In this document: piece by piece, positions 6,156-22,851 of the stretch
How positions within the stretch are numbered: the first letter of the stretch is position 1
How the letters are laid out: the number at the start of each line of letters is the position of its first letter
Virus record (IMG/VR): IMGVR_UViG_3300005346_000095
Location: 1-22,852 of that record
Strand: one strand, 5' to 3'
Length of the DNA: 22,852 bases
Source of the DNA: a virus
Made by a program: the position numbers and the translations under genes
Notes under the pieces: model-generated
The model's database searches: none
What the model saw: the letters and a program-made list of their open reading frames with translations, nothing else
What the model was told of the DNA's origin: nothing

Positions 6156-6581
6156 TTAACTTATTAGAATTTTATTATTTTTATCAAATTTATTATGGCA
6201 TAATGCACATAAACTAACCCAATCTGATAAATTTCTTTTATATTTATGATTTTTATTAGCCCATTGTAAATTTTCAATACTACCACACATCATACATTTT
6301 TTTGGTTTTCCTTTTACTCTTTTAACCCAATGATGTATAGCACTATAACTAGCATTTTGACCTTTCCAATTAGGATTTTTATCAAATTTACATTTACCTT
6401 TTCTTTTTTTAGATATTTTATTTTTAGTTTCCTTAGTATGTTTTTTCCCTTTCCTATGACCACCAGATAATGACATTTTTTGTTTTGTTTCTGCACTTAC
6501 TTTAGTTCCCAATTTTTGTTTTCTTATTTTTTCTATTGTTTCCTTAGTATGTTTATAACCTTTTTTTCTTCCTACTGACAT
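6156..6581 (-). CDS. NUMOD3-HNH homing endonuclease, 141 aa
   Basis: A free-standing homing endonuclease, likely a selfish insertion in the tail operon. Residues about 8-62 carry three NUMOD3-type DNA-binding repeats (YKHTKETIEKIRKQKLG, then KVSAETKQKMSLSGG, then KKHTKETKNKISKKRKGK). The C-terminal half has a zinc-binding HNH-like core: HHWVK, then CMMCGSIENLQW, N-K-N-H-K-Y, and CALCHNKFD. The paired CxxC motifs would hold a zinc ion, and the His/Asn residues fit a nuclease site. It lies between the tail terminator and tail tube, genes that are normally adjacent. It is very Lys-rich and more AT-rich than its neighbours, and has a probable promoter of its own at 6610-6638, all consistent with lateral acquisition. 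Confidence 0.85.
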   Translation of the reverse strand: MSVGRKKGYKHTKETIEKIRKQKLGTKVSAETKQKMSLSGGHRKGKKHTKETKNKISKKRKGKCKFDKNPNWKGQNASYSAIHHWVKRVKGKPKKCMMCGSIENLQWANKNHKYKRNLSDWVSLCALCHNKFDKNNKILIS

Positions 6582-8495: not shown

Positions 8496-8505
8496 ATTTG
8501 TTACT

Positions 8506-8533
8506 TATCCTTGGCTCCGTAAAGAGCCAAAGG
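8506..8533 (-). other. Hairpin just after the major capsid gene
   Basis: Perfect 7-bp inverted repeat TTGGCTC (8511-8517) / GAGCCAA (8524-8530) with a 6-base loop, extended by CC/GG pairs past a single bulge. It lies between the repaired capsid stop (8548) and the next ATG (8495). No T-run follows on the minus strand, so it is not an intrinsic terminator. An mRNA-stabilising or processing stem at the end of the abundant capsid message is a plausible role. Confidence 0.55.
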
Positions 8534-8547
8534 AAACAACGAACAGT

Positions 8548-9809
8548 CTAAGGAATGTTTGTCATGGCACGCAATGCTTCTGGATCCCCAAGCGTTACCA
8601 GCAATACGCGCAACTACGCGGATTGCGGTTTGATCTTTAGTAAATGCTGTTTCTGTCTCTTGTGAGATTTTAACAGTCATTTTCTTGCGATCACCCAAGA
8701 CATAAGCACGCTTGAAGTCTGCGAACAAAATGTTAGCTTCGCCAACATAATCATTCTCAACTACTTCATAGCCAAGCATTCTAGCTGGTTCCCCAGTTAC
8801 TCTGCTTTCTTCCCAGAGATAGCGACCGTTGCTATCCTTGAGCTTTCGCAATTCGCGAATGTTAGCCGTTGCGACTACCCATTTTGCGCCCCTGCGATAA
8901 GCCTGTGGGAGGGAATATACAAGATCTATCAAGTTATCAAAGCTCAAATTTGAGCCTGCGATACTGGTAGATGCGTATGTTCCGGCTGTGACTGCGGTGT
9001 TTATACCTGTTGGTTGAGTGGTTCCATTACCCTGCAAAATAACTTTATCTTCTTCATCTTTGATAGCGTCTGCGAACAGACCGATAACAATCTTGACTAC
9101 ATCAAGCTCTGTGCTATCTTCTATCAATTCATCAGAAGAATAAAGAATTGCAGCCAGCTTTTTAGCTGTTAGAGTTCTTTCATTGAAGTGAGCGGTTGTG
9201 GTTGATTTAGTTTCATTTTCAGCAGTCCATGTAACTTTTGGTCTACTAACCAATGTTGGGATTTTCATAACATCCCTACGCATTGGAATAACTGGTAACC
9301 AGTCCTCTCATAGAGAAAGGCCCAACCAAACTTTTAATCAATTCAGCGCGGAACTCATCAGGAAATAGGAACCCACCATCAGCGGCGGTACCTTCGGAGA
9401 GAGCCTTACAAACTGTCTTGTCATTAGTGACTAAAGCATGGTAAAAAGCAACAATCTTTTCATCAGCAGTCAAATTGTTTTTATCTGTAAGATCTTTGCC
9501 TTGCAGCATTTTAGCGATCTTAGTATCAGACTCAACTTTTGATTTTGATGCGTTGATTTCTGCAATTACATCTTTAGCAATTGACTTAGCAAGTTTTTTG
9601 GCTTCACTTTCTACATCAGGAGTTGGCTCAGCGGCTGCTGGAGCTTCGGGAGCTTCGGGAGCTTCGGGAGCGGCTGGAGCTTCGGGAGCTTCTGGTGTAG
9701 CTGGAGCTTCGGGAGCGGCTGGAGCTTCTGGTTTTTCCTCAACTGCTGGAGTTCCTGCTTCCTCACTCTTGATATAGTGTTTCTTTCCGTTTATAACTAT
9801 ATATTTCAT
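8548..9809 (-). CDS. Major capsid protein, HK97 fold, with N-terminal delta domain (two frameshifts)
   Basis: This is the main shell protein. The N-terminus MKYIVINGKKHYIKSEEAGT is followed by a Pro/Ala/Glu repeat (about residues 20-62) and a Lys/Ala/Glu helix (ESEAKKLAKSIAKDVIAEIN), together forming a scaffold-like delta domain to be removed by the protease. The mature shell part begins around LSEGTAADGGFLFPDEFRAE, with the HK97-typical 'G-T-x-x-x-G-G-x-L-x-P'. It continues KIPTLVSRPKVTWTAENETK, QGNGTTQPTGINTAVTAGTY, and AKWVVATANIRELRKLKDSN. Two shifts split it. One near 9296 joins RGLV to P-V-I-P-M-R-R-D-V-M-K. The other, in CCCC at 8586-8589, changes an unlikely tail into DPEALRAMTNIP with TAG at 8548. 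Repaired length is about 420 aa. The preceding protease and following connector support the call. Confidence 0.9.
9640..9729 (-). repeat. Imperfect 9-bp tandem repeats encoding APEAPE in the capsid delta domain
   Basis: About ten imperfect copies of a 9-base unit (plus strand GGAGCTTCG or close variants such as GGAGCGGCT) lie in frame within the major capsid gene. They encode Ala-Pro-Glu triplets (A-P-E-A-P-A-A-P-E...). Multiples of nine can change in number without breaking the frame. This is coding low-complexity sequence, not a CRISPR or attachment site. Confidence 0.8.
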
Positions 9810-13297: not shown

Positions 13298-14096
13298 TTA
13301 AGATTTTACTCTTGGAATTATTGTACACCTGCAATTTGGATGCAAAGGCGGTCTATTTATTGGTTCATACTCTATTGGCAAAACTCCTCCGTCCTCGCCT
13401 ATAAAATCTGACCCTTGTTGTAAAAATGTTCTACCTAGTCCGACCTCCTCGCCGTCCATTGGACCACACCATTCGCAAACCCTCTCATCCATGGCTGTCA
13501 ACCAAATCTTTGCTTCCACAACCTTGCTTTCTATATAGGCTTGTTCAGTCGCCCAATTAGTCGCTCTTATAACTTCTGATCTAGCTATCCTATTTGCTCT
13601 CATTCTAGTCATTCCATCAAATACTCCCTCCACCCGGGAACGCAACTGTGGTACGCTTTCGCCTAGTTCTACTCCCTCAGCGAGTTGCGTCCCCAATAAC
13701 TTGTTTGTTTCCTCGGTTACTGCATCTGAAAATTTGACTGTATTTTCTTTTAAAAATTTTTGTGCGGCTGGATTGCTAACATCAATTTGATCATCCATTC
13801 CAACTAATTTAAACGCATCTTTGCTGGCATCTTCTATGACTTCACCCTCTATTGGCACAAGCTCTTTTTTGGCTAGTTTTAGCTGTTTTTCTTATCTAAT
13901 AGCCATTTTTTACATCTGCTGGTAATGCTTTCTTAGGCATTTTCCCCAACACTTCCTGCTTCTGTTTTCTGAATATGCCCCTCATTTTCTTAGCAAATAT
14001 CCTTTCAAAGTTGGTTGCTCTTTTAATTTGAGCTTGGCTAAAATTCTGATAAACTGGCTCATCTGTTATTCTTTCGGTCTTTTTTTTTTATTCATC
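13298..14096 (-). CDS. Minor head protein (SPP1 gp7 / Mu gpF-like), possibly fused to portal; frameshifted
   Basis: The minor head protein joins the portal and helps DNA ejection. The C-terminal domain is clear: RMRANRIARSEVIRATNWAT, then AKIWLTAMDERVCEWCGPMD and NRPPLHPNCRCTIIPRVKS. The motif 'RSE-x-x-R-x-x-N ... W-x-x-x-x-D-x-R-V-C-x-x-C ... P-P-x-H-P-N-C-R-C' defines the Phage_Mu_F/gp7 family. The N-terminal region in a shifted frame (TDEPVYQNFSQAQIKRATNF, then ERIFAKKMRGIFRKQKQEVL) is the helical part normally present. That frame has no ATG of its own, so either it is fused to the portal through the A10 run at 14080-14089 or its start is hidden by error. Further shifts lie near 13905-13911 and 13886-13892. 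Confidence 0.8.
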
Positions 14097-15467
14097 ATAT
14101 TTTTTATGATTGGTTGTAAGTTCTTTGCAATAGTATCAGCAGTCTTTTTATCAGTTTCTTTTTTAGCTTTTTCTTTTCTATTCCTAGCATTCAAATATTT
14201 TGTCGGAGCAATTATTTTTTCTGGTATAGGCTGTCCACTCTCGCCAAGCGGTACAAGATTAAGCGGTAAATAAACTACATCTCCATCTTTTCCAATATCT
14301 TCCATGCCCTCATTTTCTCTAACTTCATTGATTGTCATGTATCCATTTCTCAAAGCACTCTCATAGCCTTTCAATTTCAAGTCGGTATTTTCTGGCACCG
14401 GATCATCAAAAGTCAAAAACATTTTTTCAGTACCAGCAAACTGTGGCAATAAAAATTCATTTAACTGTTCAATCAATCTGATCATTTTTGGTCTAATAGT
14501 ACGCTTTGCAAATATGTAGTCTGTTGCTTCTGCATTAGCTCTATTTACATCTTCAGTTAATACCCAATGCTGTTTTTGGTACTCGGAATATACCAAGTAT
14601 TTTATCCCTGCTAAATCTTTGCTGTTCTAAGAAATCCATATCACGCTGGCTCAACTGCATTGGTTTCCAATCTAATCCCTGCTCAAGTACCATGGCCTTA
14701 TGAGCCTTATCTACGCCCTTATATAATTTATTCAAATCTGCTTTTAATTGCTTGGCAACCTCTGGCCTTAGCTTCTGTTCTGTTTTTAATACTGATCCCG
14801 GCAAAGCAGAATTAAAGAAAAAATTGCGATTAAAATCTTCACTAAAATTATCTATATCCACCGTTTTAGCGGCTGCCTGCAAAGTTCCTTTTCCTCTAAA
14901 TGCATGAGTAGTATCTGGATATTTCAAGAATAAAACCTCCTCTGGCGCTAAGTTTACAGTATTACCGCCATTGATTTTGTATTTATATCCGTCTATATAA
15001 TTATTCCCTGTTCCGGGTAAAATACTCAATAAATCTGGTCTAATTAGTAAAATATCTGTAATTGTATTACCACTCTTAGCTAAATACCATGGAGCTTCAC
15101 CTGTCAATTCAAGATACTGCTGTGTACTCCAAAACAAATCAAATTTAGTAGTAAAATTATTCGCCTTAAATAATAAATCAAGGATTTCATGTTCCTTGAC
15201 TTCTTCCACTCCATCTTTAACTTGTTTGAATAGTTTAATTTCAATTGTTGCTACCTCATCAGCGATAGCACTTGCACAAGCGTAAACCCAGCCCAATGCA
15301 GCCTTTAAATAATCCGTTGATTTCATCAAAGGAAATGCTTCATTTAAAAATGACGGTCTTTCAATGAGCGAACTCAAATCAACTGCCTTTGCTTTTGGTT
15401 CTGGTTTACTTTCTTCAATAATCTGTGCTGCCCTATTGTATATACTGTTATAAAAATCTATATTCAT
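14066..15467 (-). CDS. Portal protein (HK97 family; one frameshift)
   Basis: The portal is the dodecameric channel at the head vertex through which DNA enters and leaves. Start MNIDFYNSIYNRAAQIIEES at 15467, then YLKAALGWVYACASAIADEV (the 'WVYACV-x-x-I-A' opening motif), ILDLLFKANNFTTKFDLFWS, PEEVLFLKYPDTTHAFRGKG, and FSRDKILGIFRVPKTALGI joined to TEDVNRANAEATDYIFAKRT. The last motif is diagnostic for HK97-type portals. One extra base near 14557-14560 splits it. I reject an upstream start at 15545 because the promoter at 15544-15572 would put it outside the transcript. The normal stop follows RPKE at 14066; correcting the A10 run would instead fuse it to the minor head protein. Confidence 0.9.
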
Positions 15468-15477
15468 ATTTTTGCAT

Positions 15478-15499
15478 AAAAAAAACGCCTTTGCGGCGC
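15478..15499 (-). terminator. Terminator-like hairpin with U8 in the portal leader
   Basis: On the minus strand the stem CGCC / GGCG (15495-15498 and 15486-15489) has a 5-base loop and a possible extra G-U pair, followed immediately by eight T (15478-15485). It lies in the leader between the promoter at 15544-15572 and the portal ATG at 15467. It reads as a short intrinsic terminator or attenuator, limiting transcription of the whole late operon unless bypassed. The stem is short, so strength is uncertain. Confidence 0.65.
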
Positions 15500-15504
15500 A
15501 CATA

Positions 15505-15525
15505 GTCCAAAATAATTTTGTGGAC
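15505..15525 (-). other. Leader hairpin upstream of the portal attenuator
   Basis: On the minus strand GTCC (15522-15525) pairs with GGAC (15505-15508). Inside, AAAA and TTTT pair around a TTA loop, with a two-base bulge. It would be the first structure in the leader transcript, directly before the terminator stem. Pause or antitermination sites often have this arrangement; the role here is inferred. Confidence 0.4.
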
Positions 15526-15543
15526 ACTCTTGGTTCCATTTTC

Positions 15544-15572
15544 ACTATAACAGTTTTTTACAACCTTGTCAA
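15544..15572 (-). promoter_or_regulatory. Strong sigma70 promoter for the head-tail operon
   Basis: Minus-strand TTGACA (15567-15572) is a perfect -35, and TATAGT (15544-15549) matches the -10 at 5/6. The spacer is exactly 17 bases. Transcription should begin near 15537, 70 bases before the portal ATG. The promoter begins just after the stop of the Com-like gene and is the best promoter match in the window. It would drive portal through tail genes. Confidence 0.8.
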
Positions 15573-15573
15573 G

Positions 15574-15772
15574 TTACACAAAAGATATTCCGGGCTTTTC
15601 ATTCCTAGAGCAGTCTTTTAGTTTAATTCCTTTGTAGTCTGCCTGTACATGAATGAGATGTCCACAGTGATAACTATTTTAATTTCATACTTGTTGTTGG
15701 AGGTAAATTTGCTTCTTTCAATAATAATTTTCTACAATCATGATTTGGACAATGTATAACTATGCCTTGCAT
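15574..15772 (-). CDS. Com-like zinc-ribbon protein, about 66 aa (one frameshift)
   Basis: The frame starts MQGIVIHCPNHDCRKLLLKE and continues ANLPPTTSMKLK; after a shift near 15671-15681 comes Y-H-C-G-H-L-I-H-V-Q-A-D-Y-K-G and IKLKDCSRNEKPGISFV. The CPNxxC knuckle followed by K-L-L and a second C-G-H resemble the small Com family (Mu Com-type translational regulators) often placed near terminase and portal genes. The first Cys of the second knuckle falls at the frameshift and is not visible. The ATG follows the terminase stop by one base. A nucleic-acid-binding role is likely, but the target is unknown. Confidence 0.6.
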
Positions 15773-22086: not shown

Positions 22087-22654
22087 ATTAGACTTTTTTT
22101 AGTTGCTTTAACTATTAACTTATAAATATTTGGTTGAAATTCTATATATTCAAAAACCAGCGTCATCTAAGATTTTTTGAATAATATATCCTCTGTAAAA
22201 ATGATTAAGATGATCATCAAAATTTATGTTTCTGTGCGCCTGCAAAGGCATATCTCCAACGCTCCGGGGTGTATTAACGCCTTTCCTCCGCAATATGGAC
22301 ATTCTGGTTTAGCTTTGTAATCTGAATATCTGTTGGCTTTCCTTGGAACACATAAACAAAGTTGCTTGTTTGTAAACATCTCACACATTCTGCCAATATC
22401 TGGAACTTGGATTGTAAATACACCATCTGGTTTTAAAATTCTGTAACACTCTTTTAAAACTTCATGTGTTTTTCTAAAACTAATATGTTCTAGTACCTCT
22501 ACACATATAAATTACCTTCTGCTATACCACCCTCAAAGGGATATGGTGTTTCGGTTAGATCATGGACAACATCAACTTTCTCTAAATCTAAACAATCAAC
22601 ATTCACAAATCCCTCCATGATTTTATTATGACTTCCTAAATTAAGTTTGAGCAT
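22083..22654 (-). CDS. SAM-dependent methyltransferase (frameshifted)
   Basis: A class I methyltransferase reconstructed over several frames. It starts MLKLNLGSHNKIMEGFVNVD with the motif-I loop (L-N-L-G-S), then VDVVHDLTETPYPFEGG, VEVLEHISFRKTHEVLKECY, RILKPDGVFTIQVPDIGRM (motif 'L-K-P-x-G' typical of sugar or small-molecule methyltransferases of the Methyltransf_11 type), a Cys pair in CPYCGG, then P-E-R-W-R-Y-A-F-A-G, LNHFYRGYIIQKILDDAGF, and EYIEFQPNIYKLIVKATKKS. Shifts lie near 22502-22508, 22262-22267, 22215-22223 and 22151-22155. The stop overlaps the glycosyltransferase ATG. The tight linkage with three glycosyltransferases suggests a glycan-tailoring role. Confidence 0.75.
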
Positions 22655-22851
22655 AGCATTTTTTTATTTTTTTTGTTATGGTAAGCTTTGTGTTCGCTTT
22701 TTGTAAATAAATATAAATTTTCAATTCTATTATCATCCCTTTTTCCATTTATGTGATGAACTTCCTCTTTTCTTTTTAATTTCCTTTTTATTTTTTCCTC
22801 CACAATTAGTCTGTGTTCATATACAGTAGTTCCGTTTGATAAGCAAATCAT
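22636..22851 (-). CDS. HNH endonuclease, probably incomplete at its 5' end
   Basis: The visible frame MICLSNGTTVYEHRLIVEEK is followed by KRKEEVHHINGKRDDNRIEN and LYLFTKSEHKAYHNKK. The pattern 'Y-E-H-R ... E-x-V-H-H-I-N-G-x-x-x-D-N-R-x-E-N-L ... H-x-x-x-H' is the HNH_3-type core, with the catalytic HH and Asn residues present. The ATG at 22851 is at the window edge, and family members usually have 20-40 more N-terminal residues, so the true start may be outside. The end as read runs into the methyltransferase; one more A in the A8 run at 22664-22671 would stop it earlier after HNKKK. Confidence 0.75.
   Translation of the reverse strand: MICLSNGTTVYEHRLIVEEKIKRKLKRKEEVHHINGKRDDNRIENLYLFTKSEHKAYHNKKNKKMLCSNLI

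Follow-up and report, generated by a model that had tools for sequence, protein, structure and literature searches.

Lambda Q is loaded by way of a DNA element located at the promoter. The put element of phage HK022, which spans about 70 bases, needs no dedicated protein for its action on polymerase (PMC9378689). The dual-hairpin antiterminators of the ANTAR proteins EutV, NasR and AmiR carry hexaloops with A1 and G4, and the RAT is a single element of 29-30 bases (PMC3369931). The Com protein of phage Mu is a translational activator that acts on a hairpin beside the start codon, with mom as the target; SELEX and SHAPE mapped the binding of a Mu-type Com to the sequence CC(N)2-3GAG within a C-G-closed hairpin loop, the sites usually being paired (Nowacka et al. 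2019, PMC6483171).

The window analyzed here is a stretch of 22,852 nucleotides from a virus (IMG/VR record IMGVR_UViG_3300005346_000095), in which the leader of the head-tail operon carries an RNA element that can be compared with these systems. BlastN of the window against sequenced phages gave no match, and the Rfam covariance models gave none in the window at the gathering score. Among 14 relatives, the single Rfam match was a group I intron lying outside the leader (RF00028, 52.4 bits; L018, from 6268 to 6485). The closest relative, L127, with 67% portal identity, is also present in a Candidatus Magasanikbacteria genome. On that contig (G026 contig C48), the phage genes run from approximately 44 kb onward (about 44-77 kb), after chromosomal-type ORFs that were read by eye and that we take to be dnaG, an ATP synthase operon, mreB, lysS and serS. 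The nearest relative is thus a prophage in a Patescibacteria chromosome (Candidatus Magasanikbacteria), which provides a host for this phage group. Patescibacteria have barely been cultured, and to our knowledge next to nothing has been learned of how their phages regulate genes.

Several genes of the window are split by frame changes, including portal (14066-15467), the com-like gene (15574-15772) and the capsid region (8501-9809). The portal gene, found in pieces in the window, is one ORF of 722 amino acids in L127. Because several of the split genes are whole in a relative, the frame changes are likely uncorrected sequencing indels. Additionally, two ORFs resembling HNH-type homing endonucleases (6156-6581 and 22636-22851) and, upstream of the terminase region, three glycosyltransferase-like ORFs with counterparts in L127 (18539-22086) were recognized by eye.

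Promoter, terminator and portal start

The region before the head-tail operon contains the following features.

15544..15572, (-), sigma-70 type promoter, TTGACA-17-TATAGT with an extended -10, recognized from the sequence, with equivalents before most relatives' leaders
15478..15499, (-), intrinsic terminator, GCGCC-GCAAA-GGCGU-U8, in the minimum-energy fold, with equivalent hairpins in relatives
14553..15467, (-), portal gene, N-terminal part, first gene of the head-tail operon (PF04860, E 1.6e-53), frame broken near 14590

The promoter begins 2 bases past the com-like stop codon, with TTGACA at 15572, TG before the -10 and TATAGT ending at 15544. It was the best among 32 promoter-like sites between 12000 and 20000. 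Because the number of such sites equals the shuffled expectation (32 versus 32.2), the site alone is non-significant, whereas its conserved position in relatives is significant. The terminator stem (15499-15485) lies about 45 bases downstream of the promoter and directly before portal, and is followed by a U8 tract, the exact length of which is uncertain because of the many apparent frameshifts in the window. The stability of the whole leader was no greater than that of shuffled sequences (z -0.21); stability was therefore dropped as evidence, and the case rests on comparison rather than on energy.

A portal scan of viral contigs yielded 50 loci, to which alignment-based scans added more, and after duplicate removal the comparison set comprised 76 relatives and the window. 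A terminator score of at least 14 was found at 51 of 77 portal starts versus 4 of 256 other ORF starts. When a promoter score of at least 11 was additionally required, the counts were 34 of 77 and 2 of 256, respectively. The promoter and the terminator are genuine features, conserved at the portal start. A previous reading of this DNA from the sequence alone (hereafter the sequence-only reading) had proposed a near-consensus promoter, a GC stem followed by eight T and a portal ATG at 15467, and all three hold: the promoter has 11 of 12 matches, the terminator is in the predicted fold, and the ATG is correct and starts the PF04860 protein. Its argument that late genes transcribed from this promoter need read-through is likewise supported, because both the promoter and the terminator are real and conserved.

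The portal frame remains open across the window leader, up to position 15545. A translated leader was considered and rejected, as relatives have in-frame stops upstream of the called start (6 bases in L003, 21 in L061, and 33 in L011 and L016).

A covarying hairpin overlapping the terminator

Thirteen leaders, designated class A (the window, L002, L003, L005, L007, L008, L011, L016, L056, L057, L061, L066 and L075), contain a hairpin with the ten-base loop ACYANGNGNG in one or two copies each; seven of them have a single copy. This conserved, terminator-overlapping hairpin was missed by the sequence-only reading, which instead listed a bulged hairpin. The three structures of the window are as follows.

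15522..15537, (-), loop-motif hairpin copy 1, GGA[ACCAAGAGUG]UCC, at the predicted transcript start, loop containing CCAAGAG, supported by covariation
15495..15508, (-), loop-motif hairpin copy 2, the proposed antiterminator, GG[ACUAUGUGCG]CC, with a 5-base overlap with the terminator 5' arm
15505..15525, (-), bulged hairpin GUCCA/UGGAC in the predicted fold, the 3' arm of copy 1 paired with the 5' arm of copy 2

Because the pattern was first spotted by eye in these class A leaders, the same loci provide no independent test, which comes instead from the absence of the motif elsewhere and from covariation. With a stem of at least 3, the motif matched 16 times in 25.4 kb of leaders (11 leaders) and not once in 1043 kb elsewhere in the same loci, both strands included. 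Across 19 hairpins, 90.8% of the stem cells were paired versus 62.2 ± 4.0 after shuffling, two-sided changes affected 29 cells versus 9.7 after shuffling, and control structures slid along the alignment reached at most 47% pairing. Selection of the hairpins required two or more pairs adjoining the loop, a bias toward pairing at the two inner positions; the two outer positions, which are free to vary, are nevertheless paired in 15 and 16 of the 19 hairpins. Among the stems are AGGA/UCCU, UUGA/UCAA, GCUAA/UUAGC, UAAG/CUUA, GGCGA/UCGCU and CGG/CCG. The stem of the motif hairpin covaries, so stem conservation in relatives, on which the sequence-only reading had staked its proposal, is borne out. 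Searches for new cases were less productive: a promoter-motif pattern mostly returned chance stretches, a stricter pattern returned three known leaders and two matches judged to be chance, a companion pattern returned none, and a search with the proteins of the Com-like gene described below (Com-A) returned known loci only.

The last motif copy overlapped the 5' arm of the terminator in 10 of the 11 leaders scored by script. In L005, a second terminator fold overlaps a motif copy, and in L003 and L075 the overlap was read by eye, bringing the total to 13 of 13 class A leaders by script and inspection together. In L011, for example, GGCGA[ACUAAGAGAG]UCGCU competes with GAGUCGCU-GCA-AGCGACUU-UUUU. 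In the seven single-copy leaders, the lone hairpin is the one that overlaps the terminator. The motif hairpin and the terminator are mutually exclusive, which is the layout of an attenuator.

The minimum-energy fold was the terminator in all 13 leaders, and forcing the motif hairpin cost 6-16 kcal/mol; therefore, the default state would be off and a binder would be required. The antiterminator hairpin, which has 2-3 pairs in the window, is weak and would have to prevail through kinetics. These energies are most naturally read as termination by default, relieved by a binder that acts on the RNA as it is made, and not as equilibrium switching between two states. The bulged hairpin is indeed in the predicted fold of the window and can form in L002. 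However, it pairs two neighboring motif copies and cannot form in others such as L008 or in the single-copy leaders, so it was rejected as a conserved element and is probably not the functional unit.

The Com-like gene and other leader classes

Directly upstream of the leader, two pieces of a gene for a small zinc ribbon were found by translation.

15674..15772, (-), N-terminal piece of the Com-like gene, MQGIVIHCPNHDCRKLLLKEANLPPTTSMKLK then TAG, frame broken; the intact homologue in L002 has 67 amino acids
15574..15672, (-), C-terminal piece in the next frame, YHCGHLIHVQADYKGIKLKDCSRNEKPGISFV followed by a stop, aligning with the C-terminal half of the L002 protein

The one-base frameshift between them is probably a sequencing error. 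A gene for a Com-like zinc ribbon directly precedes 12 of 12 class A leaders with readable upstream sequence (L056, cut too short upstream, was left out), and the 11 leaders besides the window have an intact homologue. In leave-one-out scoring, the Com-A proteins reached 35-73 bits with their own model and 12-22 bits with other zinc ribbons, which separates them from the class B type described below. On the portal tree, class A appears four times separately, and the presence of the gene matches that of the motif in four of four independent pairs; with only four such pairs, a sign test cannot reach significance (p 0.125). Two long relatives without the leader (L004 and L062) contain neither Com-A nor a DUF2292-like gene in their whole 39-kb contigs, and in 11 relatives a leader terminator is found with no factor gene next to it. 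The Com-like gene is associated with the class A motif, the association being defined among portal relatives. The sequence-only reading had mentioned this gene as one possible factor, and it is now the best candidate.

Compared with six Mu-type Com proteins by hhalign, Com-A gave a probability of 95.2% (E 2.5e-8). The four cysteines are kept in 11 of 11 Com-A proteins, with the layout C..C-KLL-K ... C..C. The Com family, PF10122, ranked among the top three by number of Com-A members matched, with 2 of the 11 proteins matching; the best score, 22.2 bits for L008, stays under the Pfam cut-off of 22.9 bits, and most scores fall far below. Because the scores remain below this cut-off, we named the proteins Com-like rather than Com. 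Comparison of the modelled protein with solved structures returned a weak zinc-ribbon resemblance (best E 0.084).

When the class A loops were compared with the Com consensus, 2 of 19, including window copy 1, fitted exactly, 7 of 19 fitted CYNNGAG and 19 of 19 fitted CYNNGNG. The known Mu site, AUGC[CUGCGA]GCAU, was recovered as a positive control. In Moraxella phage Mcat3 (L346, from 1632 to 1639), a hairpin that fits the Com consensus, AGTC[CCAAGA]GACT, lies between com and the next gene. The same seven bases, CCAAGAG, occur in window copy 1 and in this hairpin, as C[CCAAGA]G.

Two further leader classes were explored far enough to show that the arrangement recurs. Class B has UUACGA-type hexaloop hairpins in about 20 relatives (35 matches versus approximately 1 expected), which overlap the terminator in 11 of 18 and have a second type of zinc-ribbon gene (YIWHCP...) upstream. 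The class B form C[UUACGA]G is similar to C[CUGCGA]G of the Mu Com site, and eight leaders contain two or three copies (L030, L038, L041, L044, L091, L113, L122 and L123). Class C has a short hairpin, G[ANRAA]C, in 10 leaders (10 versus 1.2 expected), with covarying stems (CGG/CCG, CAG/CUG, CCG/CGG and UAG/CUA), and mostly a DUF2292-like gene just upstream (weak Pfam matches). A DUF2292-like gene replaces the Com-like gene upstream of portal in L006, L027, L029, L046, L078, L089, L097 and L103, and these eight loci mostly have the G[ANRAA]C hairpin near or overlapping the terminator. L013 has a related leader without an adjacent DUF2292-like gene, and one is found approximately 2.5 kb upstream.

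We tentatively suggest, while regarding it as less than an even chance, that the head-tail operons of Patescibacteria phages are controlled by interchangeable cassettes, each combining a promoter with an RNA attenuator and, in most cases, a small factor to match. Zinc ribbons of the Com-like kind would pair with ACYANGNGNG or UUACGA loops, and DUF2292-like proteins would pair with GANRAAC loops. If so, Com-family proteins would be transcription antiterminators, and DUF2292 would gain its first molecular role, as an RNA-binding antiterminator.

Proposed mechanism, alternatives and comparison with known systems

We consider it reasonably probable that the leader is a transcription attenuator that holds the head-tail operon off until a phage RNA-binding protein, the Com-like protein, appears. 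Polymerase would start at the strong promoter, make about 60 bases and, by default, stop at the intrinsic terminator. Of the two ACYANGNGNG hairpins in the leader, the second would take bases of the terminator 5' arm. The Com-like protein from the upstream gene may bind the loops as they emerge and hold the antiterminator shape, and with the terminator blocked, polymerase would enter portal and the later genes. We infer that this protein binds the leader RNA, raises expression and acts during transcription; antitermination is favored over repression because formation of the motif hairpin removes the terminator arm.

The same attenuator might respond to a host RNA-binding protein or a small ligand instead of the Com-like protein, an alternative that we regard as unlikely. 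The relatives with a leader terminator and no adjacent factor gene would fit it, as would the weakness of the forced antiterminator folds, which need some binder. Against it, the Com-like gene and the class A motif are always found together and vary in step across the tree, the motif resembles the known Com loop consensus, and 2-3 base pairs closing a loop of 10 bases would make a small pocket for a riboswitch. Processive antitermination, in which the hairpins alone (as in HK022 put) or with the Com-like protein (as in N/nut) would remodel polymerase to ignore this and later terminators, has a small chance of being correct. Tandem hairpins by a promoter with a terminator just downstream do form a put- or nut-like layout (PMC9378689). 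However, local switching, unlike put, requires a hairpin that overlaps the terminator, and the lone hairpin of the seven single-copy leaders is of this kind; the Q-type antiterminator family (PF06530) was also absent from the window record and five class A relatives (partial records; control positive). The sequence-only reading had drawn a parallel with Q-type and put-type control; a loop-hairpin that is conserved and shares bases with the terminator favors local attenuation over such a modification of polymerase.

Com is a known translational activator at a start-codon hairpin (PMC6483171), so the Com-like protein might instead act on translation by opening the RNA around the portal start, in the way of Mu Com on mom; the U-rich hairpin would then matter mainly as mRNA structure. 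We regard such translational control as improbable, because neither hairpin includes the start codon, which follows the U tract, and because nearly all leaders keep this tract, for which translation control would have no need. It is very improbable that the leader has nothing to do with late-gene control and instead encodes a stable small RNA between its own promoter and its own terminator, or serves as a simple boundary terminator. A promoter and terminator in this order would yield a 60-base RNA by default, and to that extent the small-RNA option offered by the sequence-only reading accounts for the terminated product; it leaves unexplained the loop conservation and the covarying hairpin that overlaps the terminator arm, and such terminators sit at portal starts (51 of 77) and rarely at other ORF starts (4 of 256).

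If attenuation by the Com-like protein is right, the reach of the Com family would extend from the translation of a DNA-modification gene to transcriptional control of virion genes, an RNA motif that no Rfam family matches would have been described, and the RNA switch and its protein would seem to move as an exchangeable pair. The locus would offer a concrete, testable late-gene switch, with an RNA and its likely protein partner within a few hundred bases, and the parts are small enough for an E. coli reporter. No description of such an arrangement was found in the open-access papers searched.

Compared with lambda Q, the leader shares a strong late promoter, a short RNA and a terminator before late genes, but it has a conserved RNA element, and no Q-family protein (PF06530) was found in the six partial records searched. 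As in HK022 put, two hairpins lie downstream of a strong phage promoter; unlike put, the leader has its last hairpin in overlap with the terminator and comes with a protein gene. The proposed exclusion of an overlapping terminator by a protein-stabilized hairpin is shared with the RAT of BglG, SacY and LicT, and the CAT RNA-binding domain was absent from the window and five relatives (partial records; controls positive). The ANTAR elements also have tandem loop-hairpins, the second of which overlaps the 5' arm of an intrinsic terminator, but their loop is a hexaloop with A1 and G4, whereas the loop here is the 10-base ACYANGNGNG; a search for the ANTAR domain gave no match in six records, and control genomes gave none either. 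There is also a likeness in parts to Mu Com, a small four-cysteine zinc protein whose gene lies directly upstream of the presumed target, with two tandem sites and target loops, CC(N)2-3GAG, that resemble the CYNNGNG loops of the phage leaders. Mu Com, however, activates translation of the DNA-modification gene mom, whereas the element here overlaps a terminator before portal, a gene of the head operon.
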